IMG/VR virus record: IMGVR_UViG_3300036791_000263
Span: 1 to 46,539 of that record
Direction: 5' to 3' (one strand)
DNA from: a virus
DNA length: 46,539 nucleotides
How positions within the stretch are numbered: position 1 is the stretch's first letter; the number at the start of each line of letters is the position of its first letter. A program made the position numbers and the translations under genes. Under the pieces are notes generated by a model that saw nothing but the letters and a program-made list of their open reading frames with translations, was not told the origin of the DNA and ran no database searches. Below are positions 230-40,479 of this stretch, piece after piece.

Positions 230-259
230 TCAATTTCGCACAAGTAGAAAAGTGTGCAA
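230..259 (-). promoter_or_regulatory. Early promoter/operator element copy 1
   Basis: Read on the minus strand: -35-like TTGCAC, an 18-base spacer ending TTTTCTACTTGTGCGA, and -10-like AATTGA. The -10-like box ends 5 bases before the ATG at 224, so a transcript would begin at or next to the start codon. The spacer core matches the other copies exactly; the -10 is the weakest of the set. Confidence 0.6.
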
Positions 260-272
260 GCGTTTTTTTGAA

Positions 273-380
273 TTATTTTTTGTCGATCATGCGGCGACGC
301 TGCCAGCTGTTCAGCGCGTGACCGAGAAACAGGCAGAGCGTTGGCACAACCGAGCAATAGATGACGAGAACGATTTTCAT
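273..380 (-). CDS. Small membrane protein, 35 aa
   Basis: A short gene whose ATG at 380 overlaps the stop of the upstream PLP enzyme gene as ATGA. It encodes one strongly hydrophobic segment (about residues 2-21, KIVLVIYCSVVPTLCLFLG) followed by a basic tail (QRRRMIDKK). This is the layout of a single-pass inner-membrane protein with its C-terminus in the cytoplasm. It closes the operon and lies just before the next early promoter. The function is unknown. The start overlap and the clean hydrophobic-then-basic pattern support it being real. Confidence 0.6.
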   Translation of the reverse strand: MKIVLVIYCSVVPTLCLFLGHALNSWQRRRMIDKK

Positions 381-1222
381 TTTCGTAGAGGTGCAGAGTT
401 TCCGACGACCCAGAAGAGCGTCTTGCCGCTGAGCTTGAGTTTGTCTTTCATGTAGGCAAAAGCCTTTGCTTCGTAGATTGGGTCGAGTTCGAGACCGTCG
501 ACCTCGACGTGCAGCTCGCGAGAATAAGGGTGCGACTTGTCGAGGTGAAGCTCATATTCCCACGCCCAACGGTTCGAGAGTTCTCCGATCCGTCGGTCGC
601 GGTCGACACCTGCGATCTGGATGCCGATGATGCGTTTCGGTTTGATGCCGAACAACTGCAGACCGAGCAGCGCGCCGCTCATGACGATGCCGCTGCCAAC
701 GGCGAAAACGATGTTGTCGATGTCTCTCGGCACGTTCTCAACCTGCTTGGCGGTCGATTGAACGATCGCACGCGGTGCGCCCACGGCGTTCATACCGAAA
801 TTGACGAGAAACGGATGCTCTGGCATCTTGTTGATTTGCGAATTGAGCGCTGACGTGTAGCCGAGCTTTGAGACGATGCGCACCTCAGCGCCAGCGCGTT
901 CGCACCAGCGCACAGTGCTGTGCTGTCGCGAGCGCTCGTTGCCCCCAATGGCAATGATGCAGTGCAGACCGAACTCGCGTGCCACGCGAGCGACGATTGC
1001 GCCCTGCGGCGAATGCACGCTTGTCGCTGTTGCGACGAAGCCGTTGTGATCGATGCTGATGCGTTCGAGCTTGTCCTCGAATAGAAAATTGCACTGGCGC
1101 AGCTTCGTGCCGTTGACCGGGACATCGTCGAACGGTTGCAGCAGGTCGTCACGCTTGAACAAGATGCCAGCGCGTTCTTCGACCGGTGTCAGTTCGCTCA
1201 GGTTGCGGATGCGCTCGCTCAT
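377..1222 (-). CDS. PLP-dependent fold-type II enzyme (ACC deaminase/D-cysteine desulfhydrase-like)
   Basis: A 281-residue protein starting at ATG 1222, which overlaps the previous stop as ATGA; a longer reading to 1291 is less likely. The region FKRDDL...NGTKLRQ matches the substrate and cofactor segment of the ACC deaminase/D-cysteine desulfhydrase family, with K40 the expected Schiff-base lysine. A Ser-containing loop (TSVHSPQGA) followed by a helix leading to GLHCIIAIGG, and a Gly-rich phosphate-binding loop (GSGIVMSGALLGL), also fit. Family members eliminate or deaminate small amino acids. The substrate here cannot be read from the sequence. PLP enzymes are unusual in phages; some take part in thymidine hypermodification, but no other genes of such a pathway are visible. 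It is coupled to the 1219-2118 gene. Confidence 0.8.
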   Translation of the reverse strand: MSERIRNLSELTPVEERAGILFKRDDLLQPFDDVPVNGTKLRQCNFLFEDKLERISIDHNGFVATATSVHSPQGAIVARVAREFGLHCIIAIGGNERSRQHSTVRWCERAGAEVRIVSKLGYTSALNSQINKMPEHPFLVNFGMNAVGAPRAIVQSTAKQVENVPRDIDNIVFAVGSGIVMSGALLGLQLFGIKPKRIIGIQIAGVDRDRRIGELSNRWAWEYELHLDKSHPYSRELHVEVDGLELDPIYEAKAFAYMKDKLKLSGKTLFWVVGNSAPLRK

Positions 1223-2118
1223 GTGACTGGATCCAAGATTCTGTAGATTTGACGACCACCTTCGTCTTGCCATTCTTTCGGGCCGCACCACGTCTGTTTA
1301 ACCCAGCGAGTCGAACCGCGTGCGTAGGTGTAGCGCTCATGGCGATAGGTGCGCCAGTGACCGCGCCGATCATGAGACATGCGCTTCAGTTCTTCGTCGC
1401 GATCGACGACAACGCGAGTGCCTTCAGCGACCTCTTTCTTGTTCGCCGGATGCCCGTGAGTGATCAGCGTGAAGTGAGTGCGCGAGCGCGTCCACTCGAT
1501 GCTCTTGCCTTGCTTGTTCGGGCGCACTTCGACAACGTGCGTTGACGGCATGCTCGCGTCGATCAGGAACGCAGCCACTGAGCCGATTGCTCCGGTGACG
1601 AGCTGCGAGATGCCTTGGCCAAGCGTTTCGTTGACTGGCAACCATTCGCCCTTCACACAAAGACTCATGTTGTAAAAGTAAGCACCATCTGCAGTGCCTT
1701 GAGGGTCGTGCCGCAAATTGCCGAGCAGCATGTAGAGAGGCAGCGGCATGTGCGGAGCAGGAGCTGTCTTGTGGTCCCAGAGTTCTTTGATCTCGACGAT
1801 GATAAAGAGTTCGTCGTGAGCTTTCGTGACGACCATGTTTGTGCGGTAGGTGCCATGACCAATCTCATTCTCGCCGTCTTTCCACGGCACAGCAGTCTCA
1901 GCGACTGCGATGCGAAACGTGTTGAACGGCATCGGCACCGCTTCGAGCGCCTCGATCTGTGGCGTCTTGGTCAGCTCGCGTTCATGCTCGTAGGTCGTGA
2001 CATAGTCGAAGAGCGGAGCTTTCTGCCAGTTACCGAAGACGCTCTGCGCGATGATCGGCGGATATGGATACGTCGCGAGCGCTCGCTCGATACCATCGTT
2101 GAAGGTGATCGGGTTCAC
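1219..2118 (-). CDS. Conserved-looking phage protein, 299 aa, function unknown
   Basis: It starts with GTG at 2118, overlapping the previous stop as GTGA, and overlaps the PLP enzyme gene as ATGA. The C-terminal third is rich in Arg, His and Trp (GHWRTYRHERY, then WVKQTWCGPKEW), a pattern seen in many uncharacterised phage proteins. The middle has a hydrophobic stretch (QLVTGAIGSVAAFLIDASM). I do not recognise a catalytic motif or an established domain name. Tight coupling to the PLP enzyme suggests that the two are made together. Confidence 0.75.
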   Translation of the reverse strand: MNPITFNDGIERALATYPYPPIIAQSVFGNWQKAPLFDYVTTYEHERELTKTPQIEALEAVPMPFNTFRIAVAETAVPWKDGENEIGHGTYRTNMVVTKAHDELFIIVEIKELWDHKTAPAPHMPLPLYMLLGNLRHDPQGTADGAYFYNMSLCVKGEWLPVNETLGQGISQLVTGAIGSVAAFLIDASMPSTHVVEVRPNKQGKSIEWTRSRTHFTLITHGHPANKKEVAEGTRVVVDRDEELKRMSHDRRGHWRTYRHERYTYARGSTRWVKQTWCGPKEWQDEGGRQIYRILDPVT

Positions 2119-2441
2119 TTGCGATCTGCAGCGATTTGATTTGCCCGCCAGCCAATCATGAGTCCGTCCACGTAGGCCATGGTAAGCGTCAAGAAAAGCT
2201 TGTGCTCGTCATCCGTCATTTTGACCATGACGGGGCGCGAAACACCGCTGATGTTAAGGCCGCGCGAAGCAGCGACGACGCACCTGAGCGCACGCTGTTC
2301 TGCGATGTAGTGAACGTCTTCGAGCTTTTGACCGAAACGCTCGCACGTTTCCTTTAGGCCATGCGTCTCGGCGTAGTTGTTGACTTCGCGCGCTGCCACT
2401 GCCAGCGGGTTGTCCGCCATGTCTGCCCGAATCGTGTTCAT
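2115..2441 (-). CDS. Hypothetical protein, 108 aa
   Basis: A mostly helical, soluble-looking protein. ATG 2441 overlaps the previous stop as ATGA, and its own stop overlaps the GTG of the next gene. There are no Cys clusters or known motifs. A hydrophobic helix near the end (LFLTLTMAYVDGLMIGW) may form a packing surface. Function unknown. Confidence 0.7.
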   Translation of the reverse strand: MNTIRADMADNPLAVAAREVNNYAETHGLKETCERFGQKLEDVHYIAEQRALRCVVAASRGLNISGVSRPVMVKMTDDEHKLFLTLTMAYVDGLMIGWRANQIAADRK

Positions 2442-2611
2442 TCGTTGTGCTTTCGCTGCGAATAGTCTCTGAGCCAGAGCGACGCTTTGAGCTGTTCATT
2501 GGCAAGCGCGAGCGATCTGGTCAGTTGCGCGATCAGTTGGCGCGTTCGCTTGATAGATTTACCAGCGTGAATGGCCGCAGACTTGCAGACTGGTTTGGTT
2601 AGGTTTTTCAT
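2438..2611 (-). CDS. Small basic protein, 57 aa
   Basis: A short gene from ATG 2611 whose stop overlaps the next ATG at 2441 as ATGA. The product is basic and probably one long amphipathic helix (GKSIKRTRQLIAQLTRSLALANEQLKA is the central part). No family is recognised. The overlap and the lack of a competing frame support it. Confidence 0.6.
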   Translation of the reverse strand: MKNLTKPVCKSAAIHAGKSIKRTRQLIAQLTRSLALANEQLKASLWLRDYSQRKHNE

Positions 2612-2636
2612 TTTCTTGGGTTTTGGGTTTTGGGTT

Positions 2637-2834
2637 TTATCGATTCGGGTCGCCGAATGATTTCATCCAGTAACTGAGGATGGTCGACGCGTCCTTTTTC
2701 GAGACACTGAATGCAGTCTCGACATACGGGCGGGCGCCGAACATATTCGTCTCGCCGCTTTTGCGCAGTTCATCGAGGAACGTGAGGTGCTCGTCAGTCA
2801 CGATGTTTGGTCGTTGTGTGGTTTCGTTTGTCAT
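2637..2834 (-). CDS. Small conserved phage protein, 65 aa
   Basis: It starts at ATG 2834 (MTNETTQ); an upstream extension to 2945 would run through a hairpin region and is rejected. The sequence HLTFLDELRKSGETNMFGAR...YWMKSF is a pattern I have met in small hypothetical proteins of many phages and bacteria, but no function is established. The first codons match those of other early genes, although no promoter element precedes it; a weak AGAAAG ribosome site does. Confidence 0.75.
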   Translation of the reverse strand: MTNETTQRPNIVTDEHLTFLDELRKSGETNMFGARPYVETAFSVSKKDASTILSYWMKSFGDPNR

Positions 2835-2856
2835 AAGTTTTGCTTTCTTGGTTTTT

Positions 2857-2897
2857 GGAGCGTGATTGCTCCGTTGCTGGCGTGACTCGGCACGCCA
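2857..2897 (-). terminator. Two small hairpins between early genes
   Basis: On the minus strand, a 7-bp stem (TGGCGTG/CACGCCA, 2878-2897) is followed by a 5-bp stem (GGAGC/GCTCC, 2857-2872) and then AAAAACC. There is no U-tract, so this is not a classical terminator. It could attenuate transcription, protect the mRNA end or mark a processing site between the genes ending at 2911 and starting at 2834. Confidence 0.3.
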
Positions 2898-2910
2898 AGC
2901 TGCGGAACCG

Positions 2911-3093
2911 TCAAACTGTTCGAATCGGCAAGCCGAGCATCTCAACTGCGCGTCTCATCCCGTCGACGTAGGGCTTATTGCGCCCGTCGTAACTTCGGTT
3001 GAGTCGTGCGATCTCTGCTTGCACGGCTAGGACGCTGTTGAGCGTCACGAACACTTTTTGGTTTTGAACTGCTTTGTGATCAGTCGTTGCCAT
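2911..3093 (-). CDS. Hypothetical protein, 60 aa
   Basis: It starts at ATG 3093, overlapping the end of the previous gene by 14 bases. The product looks like two helices joined by a turn (LNSVLAVQAEIARLNRSY, then YVDGMRRAVEMLG). The spacing recalls small helical regulators, but no family is recognised. Confidence 0.6.
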   Translation of the reverse strand: MATTDHKAVQNQKVFVTLNSVLAVQAEIARLNRSYDGRNKPYVDGMRRAVEMLGLPIRTV

Positions 3094-3322
3094 TTTCGTG
3101 TGTTTCCTTTCTTGTTGGTGGTTTGGTTTTTCTCAGCACGCATTCGTCAGCGCGACTCGCGCCAACGAGCGAATATTTTTTGCCTGTCTCGCGCTCTCGC
3201 ATCATGATGCAGATGCGCTGCTTGAAGTCGGCGACGCTCTCAGGTTGTCGTGTGGTGATCGATGCCTTGCGACCGTGACGCTTGTCCTCTTCGCTTTGCA
3301 GTATTGATGGAAAAGGTTTCAT
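3080..3322 (-). CDS. Hypothetical protein, 80 aa
   Basis: The start is ATG 3322 (MKPFPSILQ), chosen because it overlaps the upstream stop as ATGA. A strongly basic, polar product with a central segment PESVADFKQRICIMMRERETGKKYSL. No family is recognised. Confidence 0.6.
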   Translation of the reverse strand: MKPFPSILQSEEDKRHGRKASITTRQPESVADFKQRICIMMRERETGKKYSLVGASRADECVLRKTKPPTRKETHENGND

Positions 3323-3984
3323 TGAGCATCCCCCCAAAGCGCGTGATCTTCGCGCAGCTCGGCTTTCGCGAGCATCTCGTTTTCAAGATCATCGGCTTCG
3401 TCGCGTTGACCTTCGTCCTCGATCTCGACGTGAGAAATTTCAGGCGTCGGCTGAGATTTCGCGCCGTTGCTGTGCGCGAAGTATTTCGCACACACGGGCC
3501 CGATCGCTCCAGCGACGCTCTTGGCGGCTTTCAAGCTGCGACTGCAGACGATGCACTTTGAATACTTCGTCAAAAAATCAGCAGCGTCAGCCAAGTCCCA
3601 ACGATCGCTCTCGCTGAGCTTGTAGATCATCCCGGGGCGGTAGATCGCTTCGAAATCGACGACCTCGCCGTTCTCGGTCATGCGAGCTGGCGACTCGACG
3701 ATCTCTTTCGCATAGCAGCGCGTCTTGTCCTTGTTCGGTTTCACGACATAGACGCGATTGTCCTTGCGGAAAACGCCCATCGTCACCGTCACTTCAGATT
3801 TCGGTCGCAGCGTGTGACTTTCGAGCGCGACGTTTGTCGCAGGACTCGACATGCACTGGCCGTCGATGCAGCGAACGCCCGCGCCTTTTGTCCAGACGCA
3901 GCTTTGACCTTTGAAGATCACGCTGCCGCAGCGCGTGCATTTACCGTTGAACTTTGCTTTGATTGTGATTGATTCGTTTGTCAT
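3319..3984 (-). CDS. Zinc-binding protein with DUF6011-like C-terminus, 221 aa
   Basis: It starts at ATG 3984 (MTNESIT), 4 bases after an early promoter element. The N-terminus has a Cys set (CTRCGSVIFKGQSC...GVRC...GQC) typical of a zinc ribbon. Near residues 150-180 the motif CIVCSRSLKAAKSVAGAIGPVCAKYF (quoted in two parts: CIVCSRSLKAAKSVAG, AIGPVC) matches DUF6011 proteins, which pair two CxxC elements around an Ile-Gly-Pro loop. It is the first gene of a nine-gene operon running to 273. A nucleic-acid or protein adaptor role is likely but unproven. Confidence 0.7.
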   Translation of the reverse strand: MTNESITIKAKFNGKCTRCGSVIFKGQSCVWTKGAGVRCIDGQCMSSPATNVALESHTLRPKSEVTVTMGVFRKDNRVYVVKPNKDKTRCYAKEIVESPARMTENGEVVDFEAIYRPGMIYKLSESDRWDLADAADFLTKYSKCIVCSRSLKAAKSVAGAIGPVCAKYFAHSNGAKSQPTPEISHVEIEDEGQRDEADDLENEMLAKAELREDHALWGDAQ

Positions 3985-3988
3985 AAGA

Positions 3989-4018
3989 GTAAAATCGCAC
4001 AAGTAGAAAAAAAGTCAA
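3989..4018 (-). promoter_or_regulatory. Early promoter/operator element copy 2
   Basis: -35-like TTGACT, 18-base spacer with TTTTCTACTTGTGCGA, -10-like TTTTAC, then 4 bases to the ATG at 3984. It would start the 3984-to-273 operon with a leaderless transcript. Confidence 0.7.
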
Positions 4019-4064
4019 CACGAAAACGCAACTTTTTTCAACTTTTTATGGCACACCCGGGATG

Positions 4065-4077
4065 CTTGGACGCCAAT
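4065..4077. repeat. Left copy of a 13-bp inverted repeat
   Basis: CTTGGACGCCAAT here is the exact reverse complement of 4833-4845. The two copies bracket the three-gene unit 4112-4733 together with its promoter. Confidence 0.55.
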
Positions 4078-4088
4078 GACTTACGCGC

Positions 4089-4112
4089 AAAAACTCAGCG
4101 GGCGCAGTTTTT
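4089..4112 (-). terminator. Possible weak terminator after the 4112 gene
   Basis: A 7-bp A/T-dominated stem (AAAAACT at 4089-4095 with AGTTTTT at 4106-4112) encloses a GC-rich loop just past the stop of the 4112-4345 gene. On the minus strand it reads AAAAACT-loop-AGTTTTT. The stem is weak, but its place at the end of the operon fits termination. Confidence 0.4.
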
Positions 4113-4345
4113 CAGTCGTTGAAGATCGTGAAGAACGCTCGGTGCTGAGCATCGCCGTTGTAGTATTCGATCAGACCGTTGCCGACGTAGTGCTTTCGGA
4201 ATCGACCAAGACCTTCGACATCGAAGAACTCTGGCCATTCTCCGGGCTTGAGCAATAGCGACGACGCTTCAGCGCTGCCACGCAGAGTCTTGCTGCGCAG
4301 CGATGCCGGTGCTTCGTTGAAATCTGCGATCGTGATCGTTTTCAT
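4112..4345 (-). CDS. Hypothetical protein, 77 aa
   Basis: It starts at ATG 4345, overlapping the previous stop as ATGA; a longer in-frame reading to 4717 is an overlap with other genes and is rejected. The product opens with a beta-like MKTITIADF, and later has EWPEFFDVEGLGRFRKHYV, suggesting a small alpha/beta domain. No family is recognised. It is the last gene of a three-gene unit. Confidence 0.65.
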   Translation of the reverse strand: MKTITIADFNEAPASLRSKTLRGSAEASSLLLKPGEWPEFFDVEGLGRFRKHYVGNGLIEYYNGDAQHRAFFTIFND

Positions 4346-4533
4346 CGTTGTTGGCTCGTAAGGTGCCATGTATGGCAGAACGGGCAGCGATACTCTCGCG
4401 CTGGCTTGGCGCCATTGCCGCGAAGCGGCGCAACTGCGATCTGCGCGAGCGCGAACCTTGCCAACAGTCGCGACGCAAATTGGCGCTTGCCAGTCGCGTG
4501 ACAATAGGATTTGATTCGCACTCTGGGCATCAT
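4342..4533 (-). CDS. Small zinc-ribbon-like protein, 63 aa
   Basis: It starts at ATG 4533 (ATGA overlap with the previous stop). The C-terminal YRCPFCHTWHLTSQ matches a widespread type of short phage and plasmid protein in which a Cys-x2-Cys followed by Trp-His-Leu-Thr-Ser ends a basic helix; the cysteines and histidine probably bind zinc. Exact function is not established. Confidence 0.7.
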   Translation of the reverse strand: MMPRVRIKSYCHATGKRQFASRLLARFALAQIAVAPLRGNGAKPAREYRCPFCHTWHLTSQQR

Positions 4534-4733
4534 GGCAGCAGAAAGATTCTCCCGTTCTTGCGCATTGCCGGCACAGGCAAACCTTGTTGCCAGAATGCGA
4601 CCAGCTCGGCGTGACGAGCTTCGGTGAAAAATCGGGCGTTTGCGACCTCGCTGAGACCGACCGGCCGCGCATCGGATGCGTAACCGCCGCGGCGTTTGCA
4701 GTGGACGACGAAGCCATATTCGATCGCGTTCAT
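4530..4733 (-). CDS. Hypothetical protein, 67 aa
   Basis: First gene of the three-gene unit, starting at ATG 4733, 5 bases after an early promoter element. It contains SDARPVGLSEVANARFFTEA, then a hydrophobic-aromatic segment ending GRIFLLP. No motif is recognised. Confidence 0.65.
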   Translation of the reverse strand: MNAIEYGFVVHCKRRGGYASDARPVGLSEVANARFFTEARHAELVAFWQQGLPVPAMRKNGRIFLLP

Positions 4734-4738
4734 AAAGT

Positions 4739-4768
4739 GTAGATTCGCACAAGTAGAAAAGTTGTCAA
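4739..4768 (-). promoter_or_regulatory. Early promoter/operator element copy 3
   Basis: -35-like TTGACA (a full consensus match), 18-base spacer with the conserved core, -10-like ATCTAC, then 5 bases to the ATG at 4733. A large palindrome (4780-4810) lies directly upstream. Confidence 0.7.
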
Positions 4769-4779
4769 ACAGAGAATTT

Positions 4780-4810
4780 GAGAAATTTCAGCCGTCGGCC
4801 GAGATTTCTC
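4780..4810. repeat. 31-bp imperfect palindrome upstream of a promoter
   Basis: Position 4795 is the centre; 14 of 15 positions can pair when one G-T wobble is allowed, with outer arms GAGAAAT/ATTTCTC and inner GCCG/CGGC. It lies 12 bases upstream of the -35 of copy 3. It could be an operator or an RNA hairpin. No U-tract follows on either strand. A close copy (27 of 31 bases) sits inside the gene at 3432-3462. Confidence 0.5.
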
Positions 4811-4832
4811 TTGCGTTGAAAAGACAAGGCAA

Positions 4833-4845
4833 ATTGGCGTCCAAG
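4833..4845. repeat. Right copy of a 13-bp inverted repeat
   Basis: ATTGGCGTCCAAG, the exact reverse complement of 4065-4077. The 4811-4980 stretch around it has no convincing gene; it also holds a 7-bp inverted pair CATAAGT/ACTTATG. Confidence 0.55.
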
Positions 4846-4980
4846 TCGGTGCATAAGTAAGCCTCAGAAATACGACTTATGACGACTTGCGGGTTCGCGC
4901 CGGTGCTGCAGATTTGAAGGCAACAAGGTTAAGGCGGCGCACCGTGACGTTTGAGTGAAGCGCCGAGCGCGCGGTGCGTC

Positions 4981-5023
4981 CAAACAAAAAGTGCGCACGA
5001 TCGATTTCTCGAAACGTGCGCAC
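4981..5023 (-). terminator. Rho-independent terminator after the DUF932 gene
   Basis: On the minus strand: a 9-bp stem (GTGCGCACG at 5015-5023 pairing with CGTGCGCAC at 4991-4999), a 15-base loop, then TTTTTGTTTG. The GC-rich stem plus U-tract, about 40 bases past the DUF932 stop, is the clearest terminator in the window. Confidence 0.8.
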
Positions 5024-5061
5024 CCTGTTTTCAATCAGTCGATGGCTGCTGTCAATGACGT

Positions 5062-6267
5062 TTATTTCGTCGCGAGCACAAGTGCCGGCTCCTTGATGAT
5101 CTTACCAGCAAGCGATTCGAGATCGCCCGCGTCATCAGGGTCGACGATGTCTTGCGCGAGACGCGACACAGCTTGGGCGAACCCAAAGCGGGTCTGATCG
5201 TAGTCACGCAGGAAGTAGGTCATCAGCGCCTCACGCTGTTCTTCGTTGACTGCGCCAATCGCAACGATGTTGTCGATCGCTGCGCTCGGGCTTTCGACCT
5301 TGTCAGCTTGCGCTGCTTTCGCTTTCGCGACCATCGCGGCAAACTTGTCTTGATCGAACGCTGCGCGAATTGCATCGCGCGCTTTGAGCATGATCGCTTT
5401 CGTCTCGGCGCTGATCGTCTCTTGAGAGAAAATTCCCTCTTCGAGGCGCTCACCGAGATGCACGCGGGAAACAACCGTTTCGAGCGTCGCGACGTTGAAG
5501 CAGATGCCCATGAGGATTCCGATGCGAACATGGAACCCGCCGTGACCTGTCTCGCTGTTGAGCACAGTCACAACTGGGTGAATCGTGCCTTGACCGCCCG
5601 GCAGCTCGTCTTTGATGCGAGCACCGAGAATCGTCTTGCCCATCAGTTCCTTGTTGCCGATCGCGCCGGCATACCAACTGCCCTGCGGCCCTGAACGCTG
5701 CACGATGTCGATTTTGTCCCAGACTTGCTGAGTCGTGAACTTGATGCGCATGCGCTTGTCGCTCAGGTCGGCTTCGAACACTTGCGCGTCTTTTTTGCGC
5801 GCCTCATCGAGGCACGTAAACGCCATGTCGAAGTTATCGATCACGCGGTAACCGTTCGAGAGCCACGCGCGCACTTCGTTGTCGAGGCAGCGCACGAGGC
5901 GTTTCTTCGGGTCGTCGGCGTGCAGACCGTTGACGAGGTCTGCGAGGCGGTTCGGGCGCTCAGTCATGAGCGTGTCGAAGAACCGCGTTGGAATCGGTGG
6001 ACTGCACTTTTCGGCGAGCTGATGATATGCAGCGCGTTTCATCATCATTGCACCTTCGGGCATCCACTCGAATGCCTGCCCAGTCACCGGGATGATCTTG
6101 ATGCCGCCGTTCGCTTCGACTTTCAGGTGTCGCACGTCGGCGACGAAGTCGATGCGCGAATTTTTCTGGCGCTCAAGCTCAGTGACGAGCTGGTTCAGAG
6201 TGCCGCGACCCTTCCAAGAGTCGTTGAACTCTGCGACTGTTTCATTGGTTTTTTCTGTATTTTCCAT
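5062..6267 (-). CDS. DUF932 phage/plasmid-type protein, 401 aa
   Basis: Starts at ATG 6267 behind an AGAAAG-like ribosome site. The sequence RAWLSNGYRVIDNFDMAFTCLDEA (quoted in part: WLSNGYRVIDNFDM) and the following strands match DUF932, a family found in phages, plasmids and integrative elements. Length is within the usual range of about 300-400 residues. Family members are of unproven biochemistry, often found near replication and recombination genes, so a DNA-processing role is inference. It is followed by a strong terminator. Confidence 0.75.
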   Translation of the reverse strand: MENTEKTNETVAEFNDSWKGRGTLNQLVTELERQKNSRIDFVADVRHLKVEANGGIKIIPVTGQAFEWMPEGAMMMKRAAYHQLAEKCSPPIPTRFFDTLMTERPNRLADLVNGLHADDPKKRLVRCLDNEVRAWLSNGYRVIDNFDMAFTCLDEARKKDAQVFEADLSDKRMRIKFTTQQVWDKIDIVQRSGPQGSWYAGAIGNKELMGKTILGARIKDELPGGQGTIHPVVTVLNSETGHGGFHVRIGILMGICFNVATLETVVSRVHLGERLEEGIFSQETISAETKAIMLKARDAIRAAFDQDKFAAMVAKAKAAQADKVESPSAAIDNIVAIGAVNEEQREALMTYFLRDYDQTRFGFAQAVSRLAQDIVDPDDAGDLESLAGKIIKEPALVLATK

Positions 6268-6294
6268 TTGGTTTCTTTCTTGTTTTGCAGGTGT

Positions 6295-6381
6295 TTAATC
6301 CAGTTCCCGCTTCTCTGGTTTCTCAGTTGCCCGCCGCCCGCGCTCATTGACGAGCGCGAGACGACGAGTGAGGAAATTCAT
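6295..6381 (-). CDS. Possible 28-aa basic peptide
   Basis: ATG 6381 overlaps the previous stop as TAATG, a common coupling arrangement. The product (MNFLTRRLALVNERGRRATE and eight more residues) is basic and helical. It is too short to identify and could be a chance reading. Confidence 0.35.
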   Translation of the reverse strand: MNFLTRRLALVNERGRRATEKPEKRELD

Positions 6382-6593
6382 TATCCTGTCTGCACGATGC
6401 CGAAGCAGTCGGTGCACATCCAACCGTGACTACCGATTTTTGAGCTGCGGTAGTAAACGATGCGATCGAGAGCGCTGTTGCACCTGCACCACTCGTCTTT
6501 GAGCAGTCGGTAGTTGTGATTAGCCGCTTCGAGGTGCGCAGGTGAATCGTCCATCGCATCAGTGCGAAGGCGTTGAGTTTGGTTCTTTGTCAT
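6381..6593 (-). CDS. Hypothetical protein with Cys pairs, 70 aa
   Basis: Starts at ATG 6593 (MTKNQ), 3 bases after promoter-like copy 4; it also overlaps the previous stop as ATGA. The Cys pairs EWCRCN and GWMCTDCFG, about 35 residues apart, suggest a zinc ribbon. A small nucleic-acid or protein adaptor is plausible. Confidence 0.65.
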   Translation of the reverse strand: MTKNQTQRLRTDAMDDSPAHLEAANHNYRLLKDEWCRCNSALDRIVYYRSSKIGSHGWMCTDCFGIVQTG

Positions 6594-6826
6594 AGAGTAG
6601 TTTCGCACAAATCGCTTTGTGCGCAAGCATTAATTTCAACTATTTTTGCCTGATAACTTCGCGCTCCGAGCTTGCGCTGCTTGAGCCCAAGTCGAGCACG
6701 AGTTCTTTCACGCGCTGCGACCAAGTGCATGTCGCAATGCCAAGCGCTGAGGTGCAGCGGTGCTCCGCACACGACGCAGCGACGTTTGGCGTGCATGCGT
6801 TTTTGCCAATCGTGTTGCTTGCTCAT
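6590..6826 (-). CDS. Small zinc-ribbon-like protein, 78 aa
   Basis: Starts at ATG 6826 (MSKQHDW), overlapping the upstream stop as ATGA. RRCVVCGAPLHLSAWHCDMH gives a C-x2-C...C-x2-H set, followed by a very basic helix (ERTRARLGLKQRKLG). This suggests a short nucleic-acid-binding protein. Its 3' end contains promoter element copy 4. Confidence 0.65.
   Translation of the reverse strand: MSKQHDWQKRMHAKRRCVVCGAPLHLSAWHCDMHLVAARERTRARLGLKQRKLGARSYQAKIVEINACAQSDLCETTL
6597..6626 (-). promoter_or_regulatory. Early promoter/operator element copy 4 (diverged)
   Basis: -35-like TTGCGC, 18-base spacer ending TTTGTGCGA, -10-like AACTAC, then 3 bases to ATG 6593. It lies inside the end of the upstream gene, which may explain its divergence. 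It is nearly a perfect dyad (TTGCGCACAAA / TTTGTGCGAA), the clearest symmetry of all copies. Confidence 0.5.
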
Positions 6827-7358: not shown

Positions 7359-7477
7359 CTGACTGTGACGACTGCGCGGTTCTCCTTGCGCTGGTGGCGC
7401 CAGTTGAACGTGCGCAGAGCGATATTGACGGGCCGTTTGCGCCGCCTGATGATCTTGATCTTGCGGGTCGTTTTCAT
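7355..7477 (-). CDS. Small very basic protein, 40 aa
   Basis: ATG 7477 overlaps the previous stop as ATGA, and its own stop overlaps the next ATG. Eleven of the 40 residues are Arg and five are Lys (KTTRKIKIIRRRKRPVN). It is likely to bind nucleic acid by charge. Overlaps on both sides support it. Confidence 0.6.
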   Translation of the reverse strand: MKTTRKIKIIRRRKRPVNIALRTFNWRHQRKENRAVVTVR

Positions 7478-7767: not shown

Positions 7768-7772
7768 AGTGT

Positions 7773-7802
7773 GTAATATTGCACAAGTAGAAAAATGTGC
7801 AA
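7773..7802 (-). promoter_or_regulatory. Early promoter/operator element copy 5
   Basis: -35-like TTGCAC, 18-base spacer with TTTTCTACTTGTGCAA, -10-like TATTAC, then 5 bases to ATG 7767. Confidence 0.7.
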
Positions 7803-7803: not shown

Positions 7804-8247
7804 TCAGTATTTTGCTGGTTTGTAATGTGTCGCCATCGGCAGCTCGTTGCGCAGTTTCTGGTAGTCAGCATCGAGCGCCTGTTCTTTGACCATCGCCAGT
7901 GAGCGCGGCATCGCTTGTGCATTCGACATGTGCGTGTCGAAGTGCGAGCAACCGAACGGCGCGACGGCGTGAATCTTGCAGCGGTCGTTCTCGTCGAGGA
8001 ACACGCAGCGCCCTTTGCGGAAGCGCGGTGTGATCGTGCCGACGCGATGCGTCTTGCCGTCGTGCGTTTGCACGAGCGCGCCCGGGCTGGCCCAGAAGTG
8101 CTCTTTCGCTGTCTCGCGATCTTCGCCGAGATGTTCAGCGATGCGTTCGAAGTCGCCCGGCCTGAGCGGTCCCGGTTGCCGTTTGCAGCAAGCCTTGCAC
8201 TCGTTGCACGCGCACGTTGTTCGATTGAATTGATCTGTTTCGTTCAT
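7804..8247 (-). CDS. YkgJ-family metal-binding protein, 147 aa
   Basis: ATG 8247 overlaps the previous stop as ATGA. The N-terminal Cys cluster (C12, C14, C17, C20, C21 in TCACNECKACCKRQPG) and later C81, C90 and C100 (RCVFLDENDRCKIHAVAPFGC) are the signature of the YkgJ/CxxCxxCC zinc- or iron-chelating family. Cellular members are of unclear function, and phage copies occur. It ends the 9000-to-7804 operon; no terminator is seen. Confidence 0.8.
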   Translation of the reverse strand: MNETDQFNRTTCACNECKACCKRQPGPLRPGDFERIAEHLGEDRETAKEHFWASPGALVQTHDGKTHRVGTITPRFRKGRCVFLDENDRCKIHAVAPFGCSHFDTHMSNAQAMPRSLAMVKEQALDADYQKLRNELPMATHYKPAKY

Positions 8248-9000: not shown

Positions 9001-9124
9001 AGTGTAAGATTGCACAAGTAGAAAAAGAGTCAAGCAGATTTTTCAAAAGATGAAAACCGTGATCGAGCACAACCTTTTCGACTGCGTGACGCTGATCGCC
9101 ACTTAGCACGCGCGGTTGATTCAT
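8975..9124 (-). CDS. Doubtful 49-aa reading frame across a promoter
   Basis: ATG 9124 overlaps an upstream stop as ATGA, and the first part (MNQPRVLSGDQRHAVEKVV) looks natural. But it reads straight through promoter copy 6 and into the start of the 9000 gene. A competing frame (9030-9230, from TTG) covers the same bases. I give both as weak. Confidence 0.3.
   Translation of the reverse strand: MNQPRVLSGDQRHAVEKVVLDHGFHLLKNLLDSFSTCAILHYDKRNQDS
9004..9033 (-). promoter_or_regulatory. Early promoter/operator element copy 6
   Basis: -35-like TTGACT, 18-base spacer with TTTTCTACTTGTGCAA, -10-like TCTTAC, then 3 bases to ATG 9000. Confidence 0.7.
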
Positions 9125-9496: not shown

Positions 9497-9500
9497 GCTG

Positions 9501-9530
9501 CTACAATCGCACAAGTAGAAAAAGAGTCAA
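9501..9530 (-). promoter_or_regulatory. Early promoter/operator element copy 7
   Basis: -35-like TTGACT, 18-base spacer with TTTTCTACTTGTGCGA, -10-like TTGTAG, then 4 bases to ATG 9496. It is the outermost leftward promoter of this arm. Confidence 0.65.
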
Positions 9531-35632: not shown

Positions 35633-35638
35633 GTCAAG

Positions 35639-35803
35639 TCACGGCTTGCTTTTCCAAATGCGCTGCAGCTCGTCGCGAAAATTTCCTGCAAGCGCCTCGC
35701 CATGTTTTTTGCACACAAAGGCCACGAAGTGTCCACTTGTAGAACGCAATTTCTGGGCATCTAATTTGCCTAGACCGGCGAGTGAAAGAAAATTCGCAAG
35801 TTC
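35639..35803 (-). pseudogene. In-frame continuation of the methyltransferase, no start codon
   Basis: After the methyltransferase TGA (35804-35806) the same frame stays open for 54 more codons. They read like a real protein (RSTSGHFVAFVCKKHGEALA ... DELQRIWKSKP) and end with the same ten bases as the methyltransferase (CAAGCCGTGA). There is no ATG or GTG start, only TTG at about 35742. It could be a gene fragment left by recombination, a TTG-started small gene, or a readthrough tail. No strong terminator is seen in this convergent stretch. Confidence 0.4.
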
Positions 35804-36796
35804 TCACGGCTTGACGAAGATCAGTGCGTATTCGTGACGCTTCGGCAAGATTTTGTTGTCGATGATCTGCGATGCGAACGCTTGCCCGAACGAGCCACCG
35901 AGGTCGATGATCGCGCAGTCGTGCTGCTTGAAGCCAGCGTCGCGCAGCAGCTGCGCAGTGTGAATGTGGTAGGCGTAAAACTTGCCGTCCTTGCGAAAAT
36001 CATTGATGCACCAGACGCAGAATGCGCCTGACTTCAGGCAGCGGAAGTTTTGTTTTGCAACGTCACCAAGTCGACGCAGGAACTCAGGATAATCGTTGTC
36101 CTTGCCGAGCTGGCCCATTTCGTCGCCGTAGTATTCGAGGTCCCAGTATGGTGGCGACGTGATCGTGAAATCGCCAACGTTGCTTTTCACTGGATGTTTG
36201 CAGTCGCTGCCTTCGATCCTTCGGCCGTCTTTCACACACTTGTCGCAATGATTCATCAGGCGCGAGTCAACTTCGTGCAGCTCGATCGTCGCCTTGTTCA
36301 ATGACGACATGCCTTCAAGCTGTTCAGCGTTGCCGCCAAGCAGCATCTCGCGCAGCTTGAAGTTCGCTTCCATGAAAGCGTGCGAAATGTCGCAGCCGAT
36401 GTAATTGCGACCAGAACAGTAGCAAAGCTGCATGCGCGAATTGTGCCCGGCAAACGGGTCGACGACAGTCATGCCGCGGTCAGTGTAAAGCCGCAGCAGA
36501 GCGCGCCCGACCTTCTGCGGGAAGCGACTGAGCGCACCCCAGCGCGCCCCGGCGCCGCTCAAGTAGTAGGTCTGCTTGTTTCTTTCTTCAGCTGTGACTT
36601 TGCCGAACTCGCGCGCGACGTTTTCAGGCTGGTGGAATGTTGACGCGTAATCGCGCCCGTGTTCGTCGACGAGCAGATCGATCGCGCGGTCGCTCGGGTC
36701 GTGCTTCAAGATCGATTCGGGAATGAACCCAAAGTGCTTGACGATTGCATCGCGTCGGTCGCGTGACTTGGCAACGTCATCAGTCGTCTTGGCCAT
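35804..36796 (-). CDS. DNA methyltransferase (N4-cytosine/N6-adenine type)
   Basis: 330 residues. Motif I VVDPFAG (113-117) binds AdoMet; motif IV TSPPYWDL (213-218) is the SPPY type of amino-methyltransferases. A Cys/His set (C184, C187, C199, H201) lies between them. No restriction enzyme gene is adjacent, so this orphan enzyme more likely protects phage DNA or changes regulation. The target sequence cannot be read from the protein. It has its own promoter. Confidence 0.85.
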   Translation of the reverse strand: MAKTTDDVAKSRDRRDAIVKHFGFIPESILKHDPSDRAIDLLVDEHGRDYASTFHQPENVAREFGKVTAEERNKQTYYLSGAGARWGALSRFPQKVGRALLRLYTDRGMTVVDPFAGHNSRMQLCYCSGRNYIGCDISHAFMEANFKLREMLLGGNAEQLEGMSSLNKATIELHEVDSRLMNHCDKCVKDGRRIEGSDCKHPVKSNVGDFTITSPPYWDLEYYGDEMGQLGKDNDYPEFLRRLGDVAKQNFRCLKSGAFCVWCINDFRKDGKFYAYHIHTAQLLRDAGFKQHDCAIIDLGGSFGQAFASQIIDNKILPKRHEYALIFVKP

Positions 36797-36804
36797 GTTT
36801 CGCG

Positions 36805-36834
36805 ACTATATCACCATTCGGATGCGTTGTCCAA
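36805..36834 (-). promoter_or_regulatory. Promoter of the methyltransferase gene
   Basis: -35 TTGGAC (36829-36834), 18-base spacer, -10 TATAGT (36805-36810), then 8 bases to the ATG. It lacks the conserved spacer core of the early elements, yet also predicts a leader of about 1-2 bases. Confidence 0.6.
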
Positions 36835-36870
36835 CGATTCCTGAGCGCTCTGGGTGCGTCGGGAAGCGTG

Positions 36871-37974
36871 CTACAGCAGACGATCTTTGTCGACAGCAGG
36901 GGTGTTCCGCTTCGCCCTGCGCTCGTCGAGCACTTCCATGACGACATTCCAGTTGTCCGGTTGCAGGAACCTCGCGACCTTTTCTTCTGGTATCTTCTCG
37001 AACGTGCCTTCAGAGGCTTCAATCCAACCTTCGTCAAGCGCAGCGCTCACGAAATCTTGCGGCGTGCAGTTGCCGATTTTCAGCATGTCAGCGAGACGCT
37101 GATAGGCGGTGCGTTCAATAGGGGCCGAAGGGGCTTTGGTCGTTTTCGCGCGTCGCGTTAAGGTCGATCGGGAACTTGAGGCCGGGGATTCTGACGATTC
37201 TTTTTTTTTCGCCGGTTCAGCCGCTTTTGGCTCAGGCTCAGCTTTCTTCGGCTCAGGTTGAGTCTCGACAACTGTCGCCTCGACTGCGTCCTTTTTCTCG
37301 TTCTTCGTCGGCGGTTCTTCTGCAAAGACAGGTTTCGCGATCTCACCTAACTGGGCCGTGATGACGTTCGATTCTTCTGCGGTATACATGCCGCCAAGCA
37401 TCGTCGGGAACGAGCTGCGCAGCGCGTCAGCTTCAGCGCACTTGACGATCATCCCGGCTGGGTCGTCTTTCCAGATACCGTAGTTTTTGTTGAAACGTTC
37501 AAGTCGCAAGCGCTTTTTCATCGGGTGCGAGCGACCTTTGAAATAGACGGTCGCCCAACCGCCCAAAATCTTGTCGTTCGGCATGTGCCAATCGCCGAGC
37601 AGCTCAGTGATGTTTGAGTCGCGCAATACGATCGTGCCGCTTTCCATCCCATCGAACTCAGGGTGCAGCTCGGCGCGTTTCAAGAACGCTTGATGCGCAG
37701 TGATCAGCGAGAACGATGGAATGCCAGTCTGCGAATCGTAGCCGATCAAGAACGCGTCGCCTTCGAATGGATTCAACTTGCGTGCTTGGCACATCATCAT
37801 GAAGCGAATCGCGTCCTCGTCGCTGCAATTCTTGCCGCTGCGTGTTTTGACTGCGATGAGACGTTTCACGATCTCGATCGAAAGCCGCACTTTGTCTTTT
37901 GTGCCGAACGGCACGAACTCGACGATCTCAAGTTTGGTTTCAGTTTTCGCTTCAGTTTTTTCTTCAGTTTTCAT
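36871..37974 (-). CDS. RecT/Bet-type single-strand annealing protein
   Basis: 367 residues from ATG 37974. The middle (ARKLNPFEGDAFLIGYDSQTG...FSLITAHQAFLKRAE) is the RecT/Redbeta pattern, with LGGWATVYFKG and KCAEADALRSSFP further on. These proteins anneal ssDNA made by an exonuclease. An acidic/Lys-Pro linker (about 220-280) and a small helical C-terminal domain, similar to HTH-type tails of some family members, are extra. Possible partner: the exonuclease at 40928. Confidence 0.8.
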   Translation of the reverse strand: MKTEEKTEAKTETKLEIVEFVPFGTKDKVRLSIEIVKRLIAVKTRSGKNCSDEDAIRFMMMCQARKLNPFEGDAFLIGYDSQTGIPSFSLITAHQAFLKRAELHPEFDGMESGTIVLRDSNITELLGDWHMPNDKILGGWATVYFKGRSHPMKKRLRLERFNKNYGIWKDDPAGMIVKCAEADALRSSFPTMLGGMYTAEESNVITAQLGEIAKPVFAEEPPTKNEKKDAVEATVVETQPEPKKAEPEPKAAEPAKKKESSESPASSSRSTLTRRAKTTKAPSAPIERTAYQRLADMLKIGNCTPQDFVSAALDEGWIEASEGTFEKIPEEKVARFLQPDNWNVVMEVLDERRAKRNTPAVDKDRLL

Positions 37975-38296
37975 GATTGTGGTGGTGTTTGATGATTAAA
38001 TCGACGATCGTTTGCAGCACTTGTGGCAAAAGCCCGTCTGCTGCTCGACGGCGTGTTACTGATACCTTCGGTTGCCAGCCGAGAGGAAGCGGTAGGCCGC
38101 GACTGTCCTTACCTTCACTGCGCAATCTTTTGGCTCGCCGTCTTTGATTCTGGCGCTGTCTTTCAAGCAGTCTTTCACGCTCCTCTGGAGAGCAATGAAT
38201 GCGCTTCACATGTGCCTTCAACCCGCTGGCAGTTGGAAACTGCTTCAAGCATTGCTCACACTTGAACTGCGGCACGATTTGCCCTTCAGTCGCCAT
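37964..38296 (-). CDS. C2H2 zinc-finger protein, 110 aa
   Basis: ATG 38296 (a longer reading to 38434 overlaps the previous gene). FKCEQCLKQFPTASGLKAHV...H has C13, C16, H29, H34: C-x2-C-x12-H-x4-H, the classical C2H2 finger. A basic helical region follows (ERLLERQRQNQRRRAKRLR). C2H2 fingers are common in eukaryotes but rare in phages; a DNA-binding regulator is likely. The end overlaps the RecT-like gene start by 11 bases. Confidence 0.7.
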   Translation of the reverse strand: MATEGQIVPQFKCEQCLKQFPTASGLKAHVKRIHCSPEERERLLERQRQNQRRRAKRLRSEGKDSRGLPLPLGWQPKVSVTRRRAADGLLPQVLQTIVDLIIKHHHNHEN

Positions 38297-38618
38297 TTTG
38301 GTTGTCGACGTGCACCGCGCGCACTTTGAGCGCTTCCTTGCCATGTTTGAGCGTGGCCACCATGTCGCCATAATGATAGGTGATCGCACCCGTTTTGTCT
38401 TTGCTGAGCTTGTCAGCGTGTTCATTGAGTGCATCGATCAGCGCACGTTTCGCAGCGACTTCTCTCGTCGTGTGAGCCATGCGCGTGTCGCGAGCTTCAA
38501 CGTAATCGTCGATGCACACGTCGATCTGTCTGATCGCTATGCGCTCGACGCCTTTGCCTTTCATGTGCGGCAATTCGGTCGCCGCACCGTTCGATTTGGA
38601 TTTTCTCGTTAGTGTCAT
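38286..38618 (-). CDS. Hypothetical protein, 110 aa
   Basis: From ATG 38618 with overlaps on both sides (4 bases upstream, 11 downstream). A mixed charged protein; DDYVEARDTRMAHTTREVAAK may be a helix. No motif is recognised. Confidence 0.65.
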   Translation of the reverse strand: MTLTRKSKSNGAATELPHMKGKGVERIAIRQIDVCIDDYVEARDTRMAHTTREVAAKRALIDALNEHADKLSKDKTGAITYHYGDMVATLKHGKEALKVRAVHVDNQNGD

Positions 38619-38827
38619 GATGTGACTTGAGTTTGAGTTTTGAGTCCGCGCGGTGGCCCGCGCAAAGAGCCGCGCCGTTTATCGTAATCGTGCATGCAAC
38701 CGCGACACCATTTCGAACGCGGGGCGAACGAATCAATCGGCAACCATTTGCCTTCTGGATGTCGCGGCCCTGTGCAGCGTCGCATGTTTTTGCCGTGAAA
38801 CGGGAGTTCAGGTTGCGAAAATTTCAT
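38615..38827 (-). CDS. Small Cys-containing protein, 70 aa
   Basis: ATG 38827, ATGA overlaps on both sides. RRCTGPRHPEGKWLPIDSF...KWCRGCMHDYDKRRG has a Cys pair and a spaced His, possibly a zinc element of the HNH-nuclease-associated type, but no full HNH pattern is seen. Confidence 0.6.
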   Translation of the reverse strand: MKFSQPELPFHGKNMRRCTGPRHPEGKWLPIDSFAPRSKWCRGCMHDYDKRRGSLRGPPRGLKTQTQVTS

Positions 38828-39264
38828 GCGTGTTTCAAGAACAGTTTCTGAATCAAGCGCCAGCGCATTGCTGCATCCAATGCCTTGTTCTTGCAGCGTT
38901 CAAGGTATTTCGGCAGCTTCGCTCTGTCGTAGGCGTCGCCCTTGAATATCTTGTAGCACTCGATCCTGCCGCCCCGTGCGTCACTGTAAGCAGGATAAAC
39001 AGGCACATTCTTGTCTTGCGCTGCGCGATATGAGCGCCAACCGTGGTAGCGCACAGTCGCTTCGTTTTCTTCGTTCGCGAAACCGAACTGCATCTGCGCG
39101 ATCTCTTTCGGCGTCACGCTGTTTTTCGCACGCATTAGCATTTCTGTCGTGAACTCGACGACATAGTATGTGAGAGCGTTGCGATCAGCTTTGCGCAGCT
39201 TGCCGTTGCGATTGATCAGGTCGCCCGCGTCGAGCTTAATGATTTGTCCGTTGCGTTGTTTCAT
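38824..39264 (-). CDS. Hypothetical protein, 146 aa
   Basis: ATG 39264, ATGA overlap with the J-domain-like gene. Contains ALTYYVVEFTTEMLMRAKN and YHGWRSYRAAQDKN. A basic C-terminal half may contact nucleic acid. No family is recognised. Confidence 0.65.
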   Translation of the reverse strand: MKQRNGQIIKLDAGDLINRNGKLRKADRNALTYYVVEFTTEMLMRAKNSVTPKEIAQMQFGFANEENEATVRYHGWRSYRAAQDKNVPVYPAYSDARGGRIECYKIFKGDAYDRAKLPKYLERCKNKALDAAMRWRLIQKLFLKHA

Positions 39265-39836
39265 GCTGCCCTCCTGAGTCTGTCGCGCACGACATTGAGA
39301 CGCGTCATTGCTTCGTTTGAACCGCCGAGCTTGTCAGGATGCAGTTCTTTCGAGAGCACCTTGTAGCCGATGTCGATCAAACGGTTGGCGAGCGTGTGCT
39401 CAGCTTCGCGCTCTTTCTCGCGGTGATGCTCATCAAGCTCGAATTGCCTCATCTGCTCGCGCGTCTCGCGCGCTGTCTCTTTGACATAGGTGCTCCACGG
39501 AGCTTCGTGATGAGGTCTGCGATCGCCAGATGCCTCTGAGATCGTTCGAAAAACTGCGCCCGCTGAGTTTTTGCGCGCTGCTTTCATCCATGCTTGCGCG
39601 GTGGATTGACTCAGGTGAAAGTTCTTTTCGAGCCAGCTGCTCCAATAGCCGTGTTTGAGCTGCGACTTTGATTCGAGCAGTTCGTTGCCGATCTTGATCT
39701 CAATCCAAAGGCTTGAATCGTCGCGCAGTCGCTTGCGTTCTGCGAGATGCTCTTTGATCAGCGGCACGAGCACGTTGAGCGGTCGTGCCAATGGTTGTTC
39801 TTTTTTCGTTTCCAGTTGTTGGTCGTTTTTACTCAT
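39261..39836 (-). CDS. DUF3102-like/J-domain-like fusion protein, 191 aa
   Basis: The N-terminal half (IGNELLESKSQLKHGYWSSWLEKNFHLSQSTAQAWMK) matches the DUF3102 pattern found in plasmid and phage proteins. The C-terminal 40 residues (IGYKVLSKELHPDKLGGSNEAM) contain the HPD motif (166-168) that J-domain proteins use to stimulate Hsp70/DnaK. The fusion may direct host DnaK to a phage target. It follows a tiny upstream reading frame that ends over its start codon. Confidence 0.7.
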   Translation of the reverse strand: MSKNDQQLETKKEQPLARPLNVLVPLIKEHLAERKRLRDDSSLWIEIKIGNELLESKSQLKHGYWSSWLEKNFHLSQSTAQAWMKAARKNSAGAVFRTISEASGDRRPHHEAPWSTYVKETARETREQMRQFELDEHHREKEREAEHTLANRLIDIGYKVLSKELHPDKLGGSNEAMTRLNVVRDRLRRAA

Positions 39837-39852
39837 GAGATTTCATTTTCAT
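39829..39852 (-). CDS. 7-codon upstream reading frame (leader)
   Basis: From ATG 39852 the message reads MKMKSHE then TAA (39829-39831), overlapping the ATG of the J-domain-like gene (39836) by eight bases. Since a promoter-like element ends 7 bases before it, the tiny frame would be the leaderless first start, and the main gene would be translated by re-initiation. Confidence 0.45.
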   Translation of the reverse strand: MKMKSHE

Positions 39853-39859
39853 ATTTTGT

Positions 39860-39889
39860 GTAAAATCGACTGAACAACAAAAGATTCAA
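39860..39889 (-). promoter_or_regulatory. Early promoter/operator element copy 8 (diverged)
   Basis: -35-like TTGAAT, 18-base spacer ending TCGA, -10-like TTTTAC, then 7 bases to ATG 39852. The spacer has lost most of the core; the spacing and -10 are kept. Confidence 0.5.
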
Positions 39890-39928
39890 GTGCGCAAGTG
39901 CAAAAACAGAAAAAGTTTTCGCATGCGG

Positions 39929-40204
39929 CTACAGACCTTTGCTCGGTGCTTCGTAGCCTTCGCTGCCGATCATCCAATAATGGATGAGCAGCAGTGCGTT
40001 GTAGAGATCGTTGTCGCCCTCTTCGTAGTCGGGCGTCGTCTCGTCGACGTAAAATTGGTCCTCGATTTGCTTCTCGCTCATGCGCTGTTCGAGCACGCGC
40101 ACGCTTTCTTCGATCGAGGTGCGAGCTTCGCTGTTCCAGCGGTCTTTCGTCAGCGCTTTCTTGAGCGCCTTGATTTCGCGATTGATCTCAGCGTCGCTTC
40201 TCAT
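39929..40204 (-). CDS. Hypothetical protein, 91 aa
   Basis: ATG 40204 overlaps the previous stop as ATGA. A charged coiled-coil-like N-terminal part (REIKALKKALTKDRW) and an acidic C-terminal part (TTPDYEEGDNDLYNALLLI). No family is recognised. Confidence 0.65.
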   Translation of the reverse strand: MRSDAEINREIKALKKALTKDRWNSEARTSIEESVRVLEQRMSEKQIEDQFYVDETTPDYEEGDNDLYNALLLIHYWMIGSEGYEAPSKGL

Positions 40205-40443
40205 TGAGCGACCGCAGCTGCTGGCACAGGTGTCGCGGGCTTCGCGCTCTCATCTTCGACGAATTTCTCGTAGATTTTATCGCGCAAGCCTACCGTCAAC
40301 ATGGACTCGACGAACTCTTGCAGTGGAATGCGCTTCTGCACTGAGAGCACGCGAATGCGGTGATGTAGCACGTCGCTGACCTTGACTGTTCGAGTAGGAC
40401 TTTTTTTGCGTAGATTGCTTTTCATCGAAAGCGAGCTTGACAC
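40201..40443 (-). CDS. Ribbon-helix-helix-like regulator, about 80 aa
   Basis: GTG 40443 follows promoter copy 9 by 6 bases; ATG 40425 (MKSNLRKK) is the alternative. A basic N-terminal arm (RKKSPTRTVKVSDVLHHRIR) leads into helices (VLSVQKRIPLQEFVESMLTV) that fit the ribbon-helix-helix pattern, followed by a Pro/Ala tail. It may be the repressor of the early elements. Confidence in the family is moderate. Confidence 0.55.
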   Translation of the reverse strand: MSSSLSMKSNLRKKSPTRTVKVSDVLHHRIRVLSVQKRIPLQEFVESMLTVGLRDKIYEKFVEDESAKPATPVPAAAVAQ

Positions 40444-40466
40444 GGTTACACAAAGTGCGCAAGTAG
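40437..40466 (+). promoter_or_regulatory. Possible rightward leaderless promoter
   Basis: -35 TTGACA (40437-40442), 18-base spacer, -10-like AAGTAG (40461-40466), then 6 bases to GTG 40473. It overlaps leftward copy 9 head to head, so the two directions could exclude each other. Confidence 0.45.
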
Positions 40467-40479
40467 AAAAGCGTGACAA
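40450..40479 (-). promoter_or_regulatory. Early promoter/operator element copy 9
   Basis: -35-like TTGTCA, 18-base spacer containing TTTTCTACTTGCGCA, -10-like CTTTGT, then 6 bases to GTG 40443. The TTGTCA lies across the start of the rightward gene 40473. This is the centre of the divergent switch between the two operons. Confidence 0.6.

Follow-up and report, generated by a model that had tools for sequence, protein, structure and literature searches.

The complete virus record IMGVR_UViG_3300036791_000263 of IMG/VR (46,539 bases, the window hereafter) contains a family of compact promoters that precede leftward, probably early genes and are predicted to yield leaderless transcripts. Comparison with related phages reveals that these promoters carry palindromic boxes of the form YAC-NN-GTR, laid out with an 8-bp period, and that promoters and boxes co-occur with a genomic module encoding a 74-residue ribbon-helix-helix (RHH)-like protein. 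Together these observations make it likely that the promoters are read by the host RNA polymerase and later shut off by the RHH-like protein, a putative repressor that would also control its own gene. The related phages were recovered with the terminase as bait (records G003, G004, G009 and G015) and, as an independent bait, with the RHH-like protein (G019, G020 and G024).

Predicted leaderless promoters in the window and its relatives

An earlier reading of the window (the original prediction) had named nine places with a leftward promoter-like element, and an element is present at each of them. The 14-mer TTTTCTACTTGTGC occurs exactly six times in the window, always on the minus strand (238, 3997, 4747, 7781, 9012 and 9509), and the plus strand has no copy; essentially no copies are expected by chance. 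A conserved spacer core had been ascribed to seven of the elements: the 14-mer is identical in these six, and the seventh, at 6597, retains just TTGTGCGA on its right side. Each of the seven main copies is followed by a leftward gene that starts with ATG. The -10 box had been described as TNTTAC at 18 bases, which TTGTAG, AATTGA and TCTACA do not fit; that hexamer was placed 2 nucleotides (nt) off, and the main copies are parsed consistently as TTGNNN, 16 nt ending in TGC, [GA]ANNNT, 5 to 7 nt and ATG.

Promoters of this form, all on the minus strand, lie at 225-259 (TTGCAC-16-TGC GAAATT, 7 nt to the ATG at 224, with the box CTACTTGTGC at 238-247), 3985-4018 (TTGACT-16-TGC GATTTT, 6 nt to ATG 3984, box at 3997-4006; retained at the orthologues in G003 and G009), 4734-4768 (TTGACA-16-TGC GAATCT, 7 nt to ATG 4733, box at 4747-4756), 7768-7802 (TTGCAC-16-TGC AATATT, 7 nt to ATG 7767, box at 7781-7790), 9001-9033 (TTGACT-16-TGC AATCTT, 5 nt to ATG 9000, box at 9012-9021; also present at the orthologous genes of G004 and G009) and 9497-9530 (TTGACT-16-TGC GATTGT, 6 nt to ATG 9496, box at 9509-9518). 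The divergent seventh copy occupies 6594-6626 (TTGCGC-16-TGC GAAACT, 5 nt to ATG 6593), where an inverted repeat, GCGCACAAA-N4-TTTGTGCG, replaces the perfect box. The element at 39860 is without the spacer core and differs from the main copies in layout: in this variant promoter (39853-39901, minus strand) a box-like GCACTTGCGCAC stands just upstream of TTGAAT-16-GATTTT, 9 nt from the ATG at 39852. That first ATG opens a 7-codon mini open reading frame, MKMKSHE* (39829-39852), the end of which overlaps the beginning of the gene at 39261-39836.

The same promoters recur in relatives found by either bait, at orthologous as well as unrelated early genes, as an A-rich stretch, a -35 starting with TTG, a 16-nt spacer ending in TGC, [GA]ANNNT, 5-8 nt and ATG. 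The leaderless layout of the original prediction is thus supported by comparison: in eight related phages the -10 lies 5-8 nt from the ATG, whether the promoters are orthologous or not, and this gap leaves no space for a Shine-Dalgarno site. When sites were selected by the box alone, with -10 and ATG ignored (10 sites from five phages), positions A2 and T6 of the hexamer were present in all 10, as was an ATG 11-13 nt past the box. RNA polymerase initiates about 7 nt downstream of the -10, which places the expected 5' end on the start codon or no more than about 2 nt from it; the sequences hence support the prediction that these messages are leaderless. Structural genes, as had also been anticipated for late genes, often have Shine-Dalgarno sites: a match of at least 4 nt precedes 16 of 28 structural genes versus none of the six promoter-proximal called genes, against a random rate of 12.5%. 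The term early for the latter class reflects gene content and may be read as a prediction of their timing.

Within a phage, identity between copies is mainly confined to the promoter and the first 3-4 codons; past +12 it falls to background, as it does upstream of -20 in most phages. In the window and in G009, G015, G004 and G024, unrelated early proteins of the same phage have their first 3-4 codons in common (MTNE, MTTT, MTK/MTN and MNNES-like starts), which may reflect a start-context signal that acts in leaderless translation or a copied promoter-start cassette. The gene at 2637-2834 (minus strand) likewise begins with ATGACAAACGAA, the same start as the promoter-bearing genes, and has no box promoter directly upstream. 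Promoters for a T7-like single-subunit RNA polymerase were considered and dropped, as the region right before the start is the least conserved. Scans of viral and genome collections for the exact core gave, among the matches listed, single occurrences in mostly unrelated contigs, which were taken as chance and not used.

A palindromic box array with an 8-bp period

The spacer core is well supported by the sequence comparison as one box of an array of YAC-NN-GTR palindromes that lies, with an 8-bp period, upstream of the early genes in the eight related phages. With dyad centres counted from the first base of the -35, 33 aligned promoters contain perfect dyads solely at +0.5, +8.5 and +16.5 (3, 9 and 18 sites, respectively) and none at about 70 other offsets. 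These 33 promoters had been preselected by motif, and the test was rerun without the promoter filter on the sequence upstream of each of the 533 called genes; it returned 43 dyads at -40 to -12, versus 7.3 expected from genome density, with most of them near -17, -25 and -33 relative to the start codon. Six control dyad patterns treated in the same way showed at most a 1.5-fold excess. The central dinucleotide of the box is variable (10 types) and the flanking AC/GT is invariant. In the relatives the boxes cover the -35 or lie within the spacer, and some are inverted, moving in steps of 8 bp through three registers and occurring in both asymmetric orientations. This pattern argues for protein-bound sites and speaks against a simple spacer signal for RNA polymerase. 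The dedicated regulator invoked in the original prediction is accordingly sharpened to an 8-bp-period palindromic array linked to a candidate gene for an RHH-like protein. Two earlier motif readings, a 16-bp direct repeat and GCAC-N10-GTGC, were abandoned, since the 8-bp dyad array accounts for both.

A candidate regulator and its module

The best candidate for the box binder is the RHH-like protein of 74 amino acids encoded at 40201-40425 on the minus strand, its predicted role being based on profiles, an AlphaFold2 (AF2) model and sites in its own promoter. Orthologues are present in G003, G004, G015, G019, G020 and G024, and their core assumes the consensus TRTVKISDVLHHRIRVLSVQKRMPMQEFIE, an RHH form in which the TRTVK strand is invariant. 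Profile matches among the orthologues are weak but consistent, namely to RHH_10 (E = 0.00053), Omega_Repress (0.0074) and an Arc-like PHROG (0.017), and the window member itself matches Omega_Repress at 0.064 (14 bits versus a cut-off of 33.3). The AF2 monomer displays an extended TRTVKVS segment followed by helices at residues 16-30 and 35-58, with a predicted local distance difference test score (pLDDT) of 82-91 over residues 11-40. Its structural neighbours in the PDB, which we take to be mostly RHH proteins, are not significant (E > 1), and a sequence search of the PDB with the protein gave one irrelevant match. The predicted DNA-contacting strand of the protein and the AC/GT of the boxes are invariant in parallel.

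The ninth element, at 40450, belongs to the RHH-like gene itself (promoter at 40426-40470, minus strand): here the motif TTTTCTACTTGCGC sits at the -35, followed after 17 nt by TGT CAAGCT and, 8 nt further, by the start at ATG 40425. The extended -10, TGTCAAGCT, is kept in most relatives, and its TGTCAA is common to the window, G003, G004, G015, G020 and G024. Perfect boxes occur in the gene's own promoter in G004 and G024, and matches at 5 of 6 positions in the window, G003, G019 and G020. In light of these observations we propose that the host RNA polymerase would read the strong leaderless early promoters at phage entry. The RHH-like protein would then accumulate and bind the 8-bp boxes as side-by-side dimers that spread over the array, and, the boxes lying inside the polymerase footprint, the promoters would be occluded and the early genes shut off, with the protein repressing its own promoter as well. 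Repression of all these promoters, including its own, appears most likely because the boxes fall inside that footprint and box-like sites lie over the gene's own promoter.

Six further related records (40-64 kb) were collected with a structural gene as bait, at 64-77% identity in that gene. The RHH-like gene is absent from all six, which have the same structural genes. The leaderless extended -10 promoter occurs at none of their 451 genes, compared with 37 of the 533 genes of the box-bearing phages (p = 8e-11), and they contain 5 dyads, the background level, versus 43 (p = 1e-7); a first point to be weighed against the proposed scheme is that both p-values are calculated per gene, with genes treated as independent and phage relatedness ignored, on records that may be incomplete. 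Several others have to be set beside it. Orthologous RecT, resolvase and methylase are likewise missing from the RHH-lacking phages, and co-occurrence does not single out the RHH-like gene; the co-occurring unit is therefore the module, from which the RHH-like gene is picked by its predicted function. The RHH assignment combines sub-threshold profile matches with non-significant fold matches, and the AF2 model is of a monomer, with a mean pLDDT of 68. Perfect boxes are found in the gene's own promoter in just two orthologues, with none by that score in G015. Finally, boxes are present in G009, whose 22-kb contig yielded no RHH-like gene; that contig does not extend over the equivalent region. 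As for descent, phages with and without the RHH-like gene do not form two clades in structural-protein trees, and at least two changes are forced in the tail-protein tree; the portal tree is still compatible with a single origin. Since the structural-protein trees do not split the two groups, shared ancestry alone is an unlikely cause of the co-occurrence.

An alternative to which we assign a low probability is that the boxes are operators of some other protein, such as a host repressor or another product of the module. The genes downstream of the RHH-like gene (36871-40204, minus strand) encode RecT, which travels with the module, a DUF3102/J-like protein and others. The DUF3102 protein (39261-39836) could be such a binder, given that a box-like site also precedes its gene and that the module genes co-occur; it carries, besides its DUF3102 domain, a C-terminal HPDK motif and is J-domain-like. 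However, it is poorly conserved (24-49% identity) in contrast to the invariant AC/GT of the boxes and the TRTVK strand, a palindromic array of 8-bp period matches the operator geometry of MetJ, an RHH protein, and one would not expect a host regulator to follow a single phage module.

Of comparably small likelihood is the option that the RHH-like protein is an activator or dual regulator. Many of the -35s are poor (TTGCGC, TTGTGC), and the RHH protein AmrZ is described as performing both functions (PMC3325190); yet the boxes lie between -35 and -10, within the polymerase footprint, and several window promoters combine a good -35 (TTGACT/TTGACA) with an extended -10.

Somewhat less probable still is recognition of the core by RNA polymerase itself, through an unusual host sigma factor or a phage-modified polymerase and with no separate operator. 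An RNA polymerase adaptation had been part of the original prediction, and the near-invariant GTGC of the +16.5 box, which overlaps the extended -10, the constant TTG of the -35 and the constant spacing would all agree with it. It is nevertheless not supported, because a polymerase spacer signal would not shift by 8 or 16 bp or invert, whereas the dyad switches between registers over the -35 and in mid-spacer, in both orientations and with a variable centre. Moreover, neither a phage RNA polymerase nor a sigma family turned up in the 126 early and arm proteins scanned from three relatives or in 30 scanned proteins of the window. The same set, from contigs that may be incomplete, contained no integrase or helix-turn-helix repressor of the kind that would mark temperate immunity. 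The weakest possibility, that the repeats arose by recent duplication of promoter cassettes or serve as recombination sites in this RecT-encoding phage, conserved by copying and without any regulator, would explain why the genes of each phage share their first 3-4 codons (MTNE, MTTT, MNNES) along with the promoter, but is very improbable given that in most phages the flanking sequences are no more alike than background, that copies in the same phage differ in register, centre and -35, and that the 8-bp register is preserved between phages with different genes.

Beyond the repressor scheme, we tentatively entertain a broader proposal, which could well prove wrong, in which the autoregulated RHH-like protein and the box array on every leaderless early promoter might constitute a self-contained early-control module. 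This would move as a unit with the RecT/resolvase/methylase replication arm and be wholly replaced in sister phages that share the virion genes; these sisters have none of the promoters, and several have other phage-specific repeats. New accessory genes might join the regulon through a ready-made promoter-plus-start cassette. Three RHH-lacking sisters each have their own phage-specific intergenic repeat in many copies, often at late-gene boundaries: GAAGGTTAATTAAATTTAGTCAAAGCTT in G616 (e.g. L377:139-160), the palindromic CCCTTATAYTGAATTCAATATAAGGG in G617 (e.g. L380:3765) and the inverted AAGCTTATC-N9-TGATAAGCTT in G618 (e.g. L382:2373-2400).

Known systems, significance and neighbouring genes

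MetJ and P22 Arc are RHH repressors whose boxes over promoters are bound by RHH dimers, and the met boxes of MetJ have an 8-bp tandem period. The met boxes are also dyad-symmetric (PMC3274233), and the boxes of the window and its relatives resemble this type of tandem operator in being palindromic, in their 8-bp centre spacing and in their position over the promoter; they differ from the MetJ and Arc systems in box sequence, gene context and sequence family, with no significant sequence match to either. Among archaeal viruses, RHH regulators such as SSV1 F55 and SvtR act on early promoters and on their own, and F55 is a small viral RHH protein that binds repeated sites in immediate-early promoters and its own; RHH regulators repress by promoter occlusion, with dimers spreading cooperatively (PMC5569661). 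F55, however, acts on archaeal TATA/B recognition element promoters with the direct repeat ATAGATAG, unlike the bacterial leaderless promoters with extended -10 and 8-bp palindromic boxes described here.

Cluster O mycobacteriophages (the Corndog group) have predicted SigA promoters in AT-rich regions, some of them positioned with the start site on the start codon, and a dyad-symmetric repeat, its function unknown, in more than 30 copies; an integrase is not reported for them (PMC4351075). They thus share leaderless promoters and multi-copy dyad repeats with the phages studied here, but their 17-bp dyad, TGTTCGG-N3-CCGAACA, is scattered, about one third of it inside genes, and is not linked to starts; they have no 8-bp array and no named binder. 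The stoperators of Cluster A are asymmetric and oriented with transcription, and the start-associated sequences (SAS) of Cluster K lie at gene starts (PMC4351075). Both resemble the boxes as short multi-copy elements used genome-wide, the SAS also in location. The boxes, however, are dyads, found in both asymmetric orientations and concentrated at gene starts, and so do not classify as stoperators, and SAS are not described as promoter operators (PMC4351075). In archaeal viruses an early-promoter motif has been used to find anti-defence genes (PMC11065993), a comparable case of one conserved promoter uniting small, fast-changing early genes, though there an archaeal promoter core is combined with flanking regulatory sequence, and here a bacterial-type phage combines a promoter with a putative operator array. 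In the literature searched, no paper describing leaderless promoters, a box array and an RHH-like gene together was found; the combination appears to be new, its components being of known kinds.

The promoter and box pattern thus offers a readable cis-regulatory code for a group of uncultivated phages. In each genome it groups several small, fast-evolving genes into a single predicted regulon, linking dozens of uncharacterized genes that may function in host take-over or anti-defence. The 74-residue protein is a candidate open to in vitro tests that do not require the host, and the elements are natural promoters that pack operator, extended -10 and start codon into about 35 bp.

The window encodes a gpA-type terminase, RecT, a DnaB-type helicase and a phage structural block. 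No close relative of its first 25 kb was found among deposited phages, the best terminase relatives in phage records are at most about 43% identical, and terminase searches in two phyla, picked via L146 (a Bryobacter) and L126 (an Opitutia bacterium) and covered by about 300 genomes each, yielded only 35-40% matches. Scans of the window for tRNAs and Rfam families found none. Two further leftward genes deserve mention. The first, at 377-1222 in the early arm, codes for a pyridoxal-phosphate-dependent enzyme (PALP, E = 2.6e-13) and may be a metabolic gene of host origin; the second, at 7804-8247, codes for a CxxCxxCC domain protein that is kept in the relatives at different genome positions.

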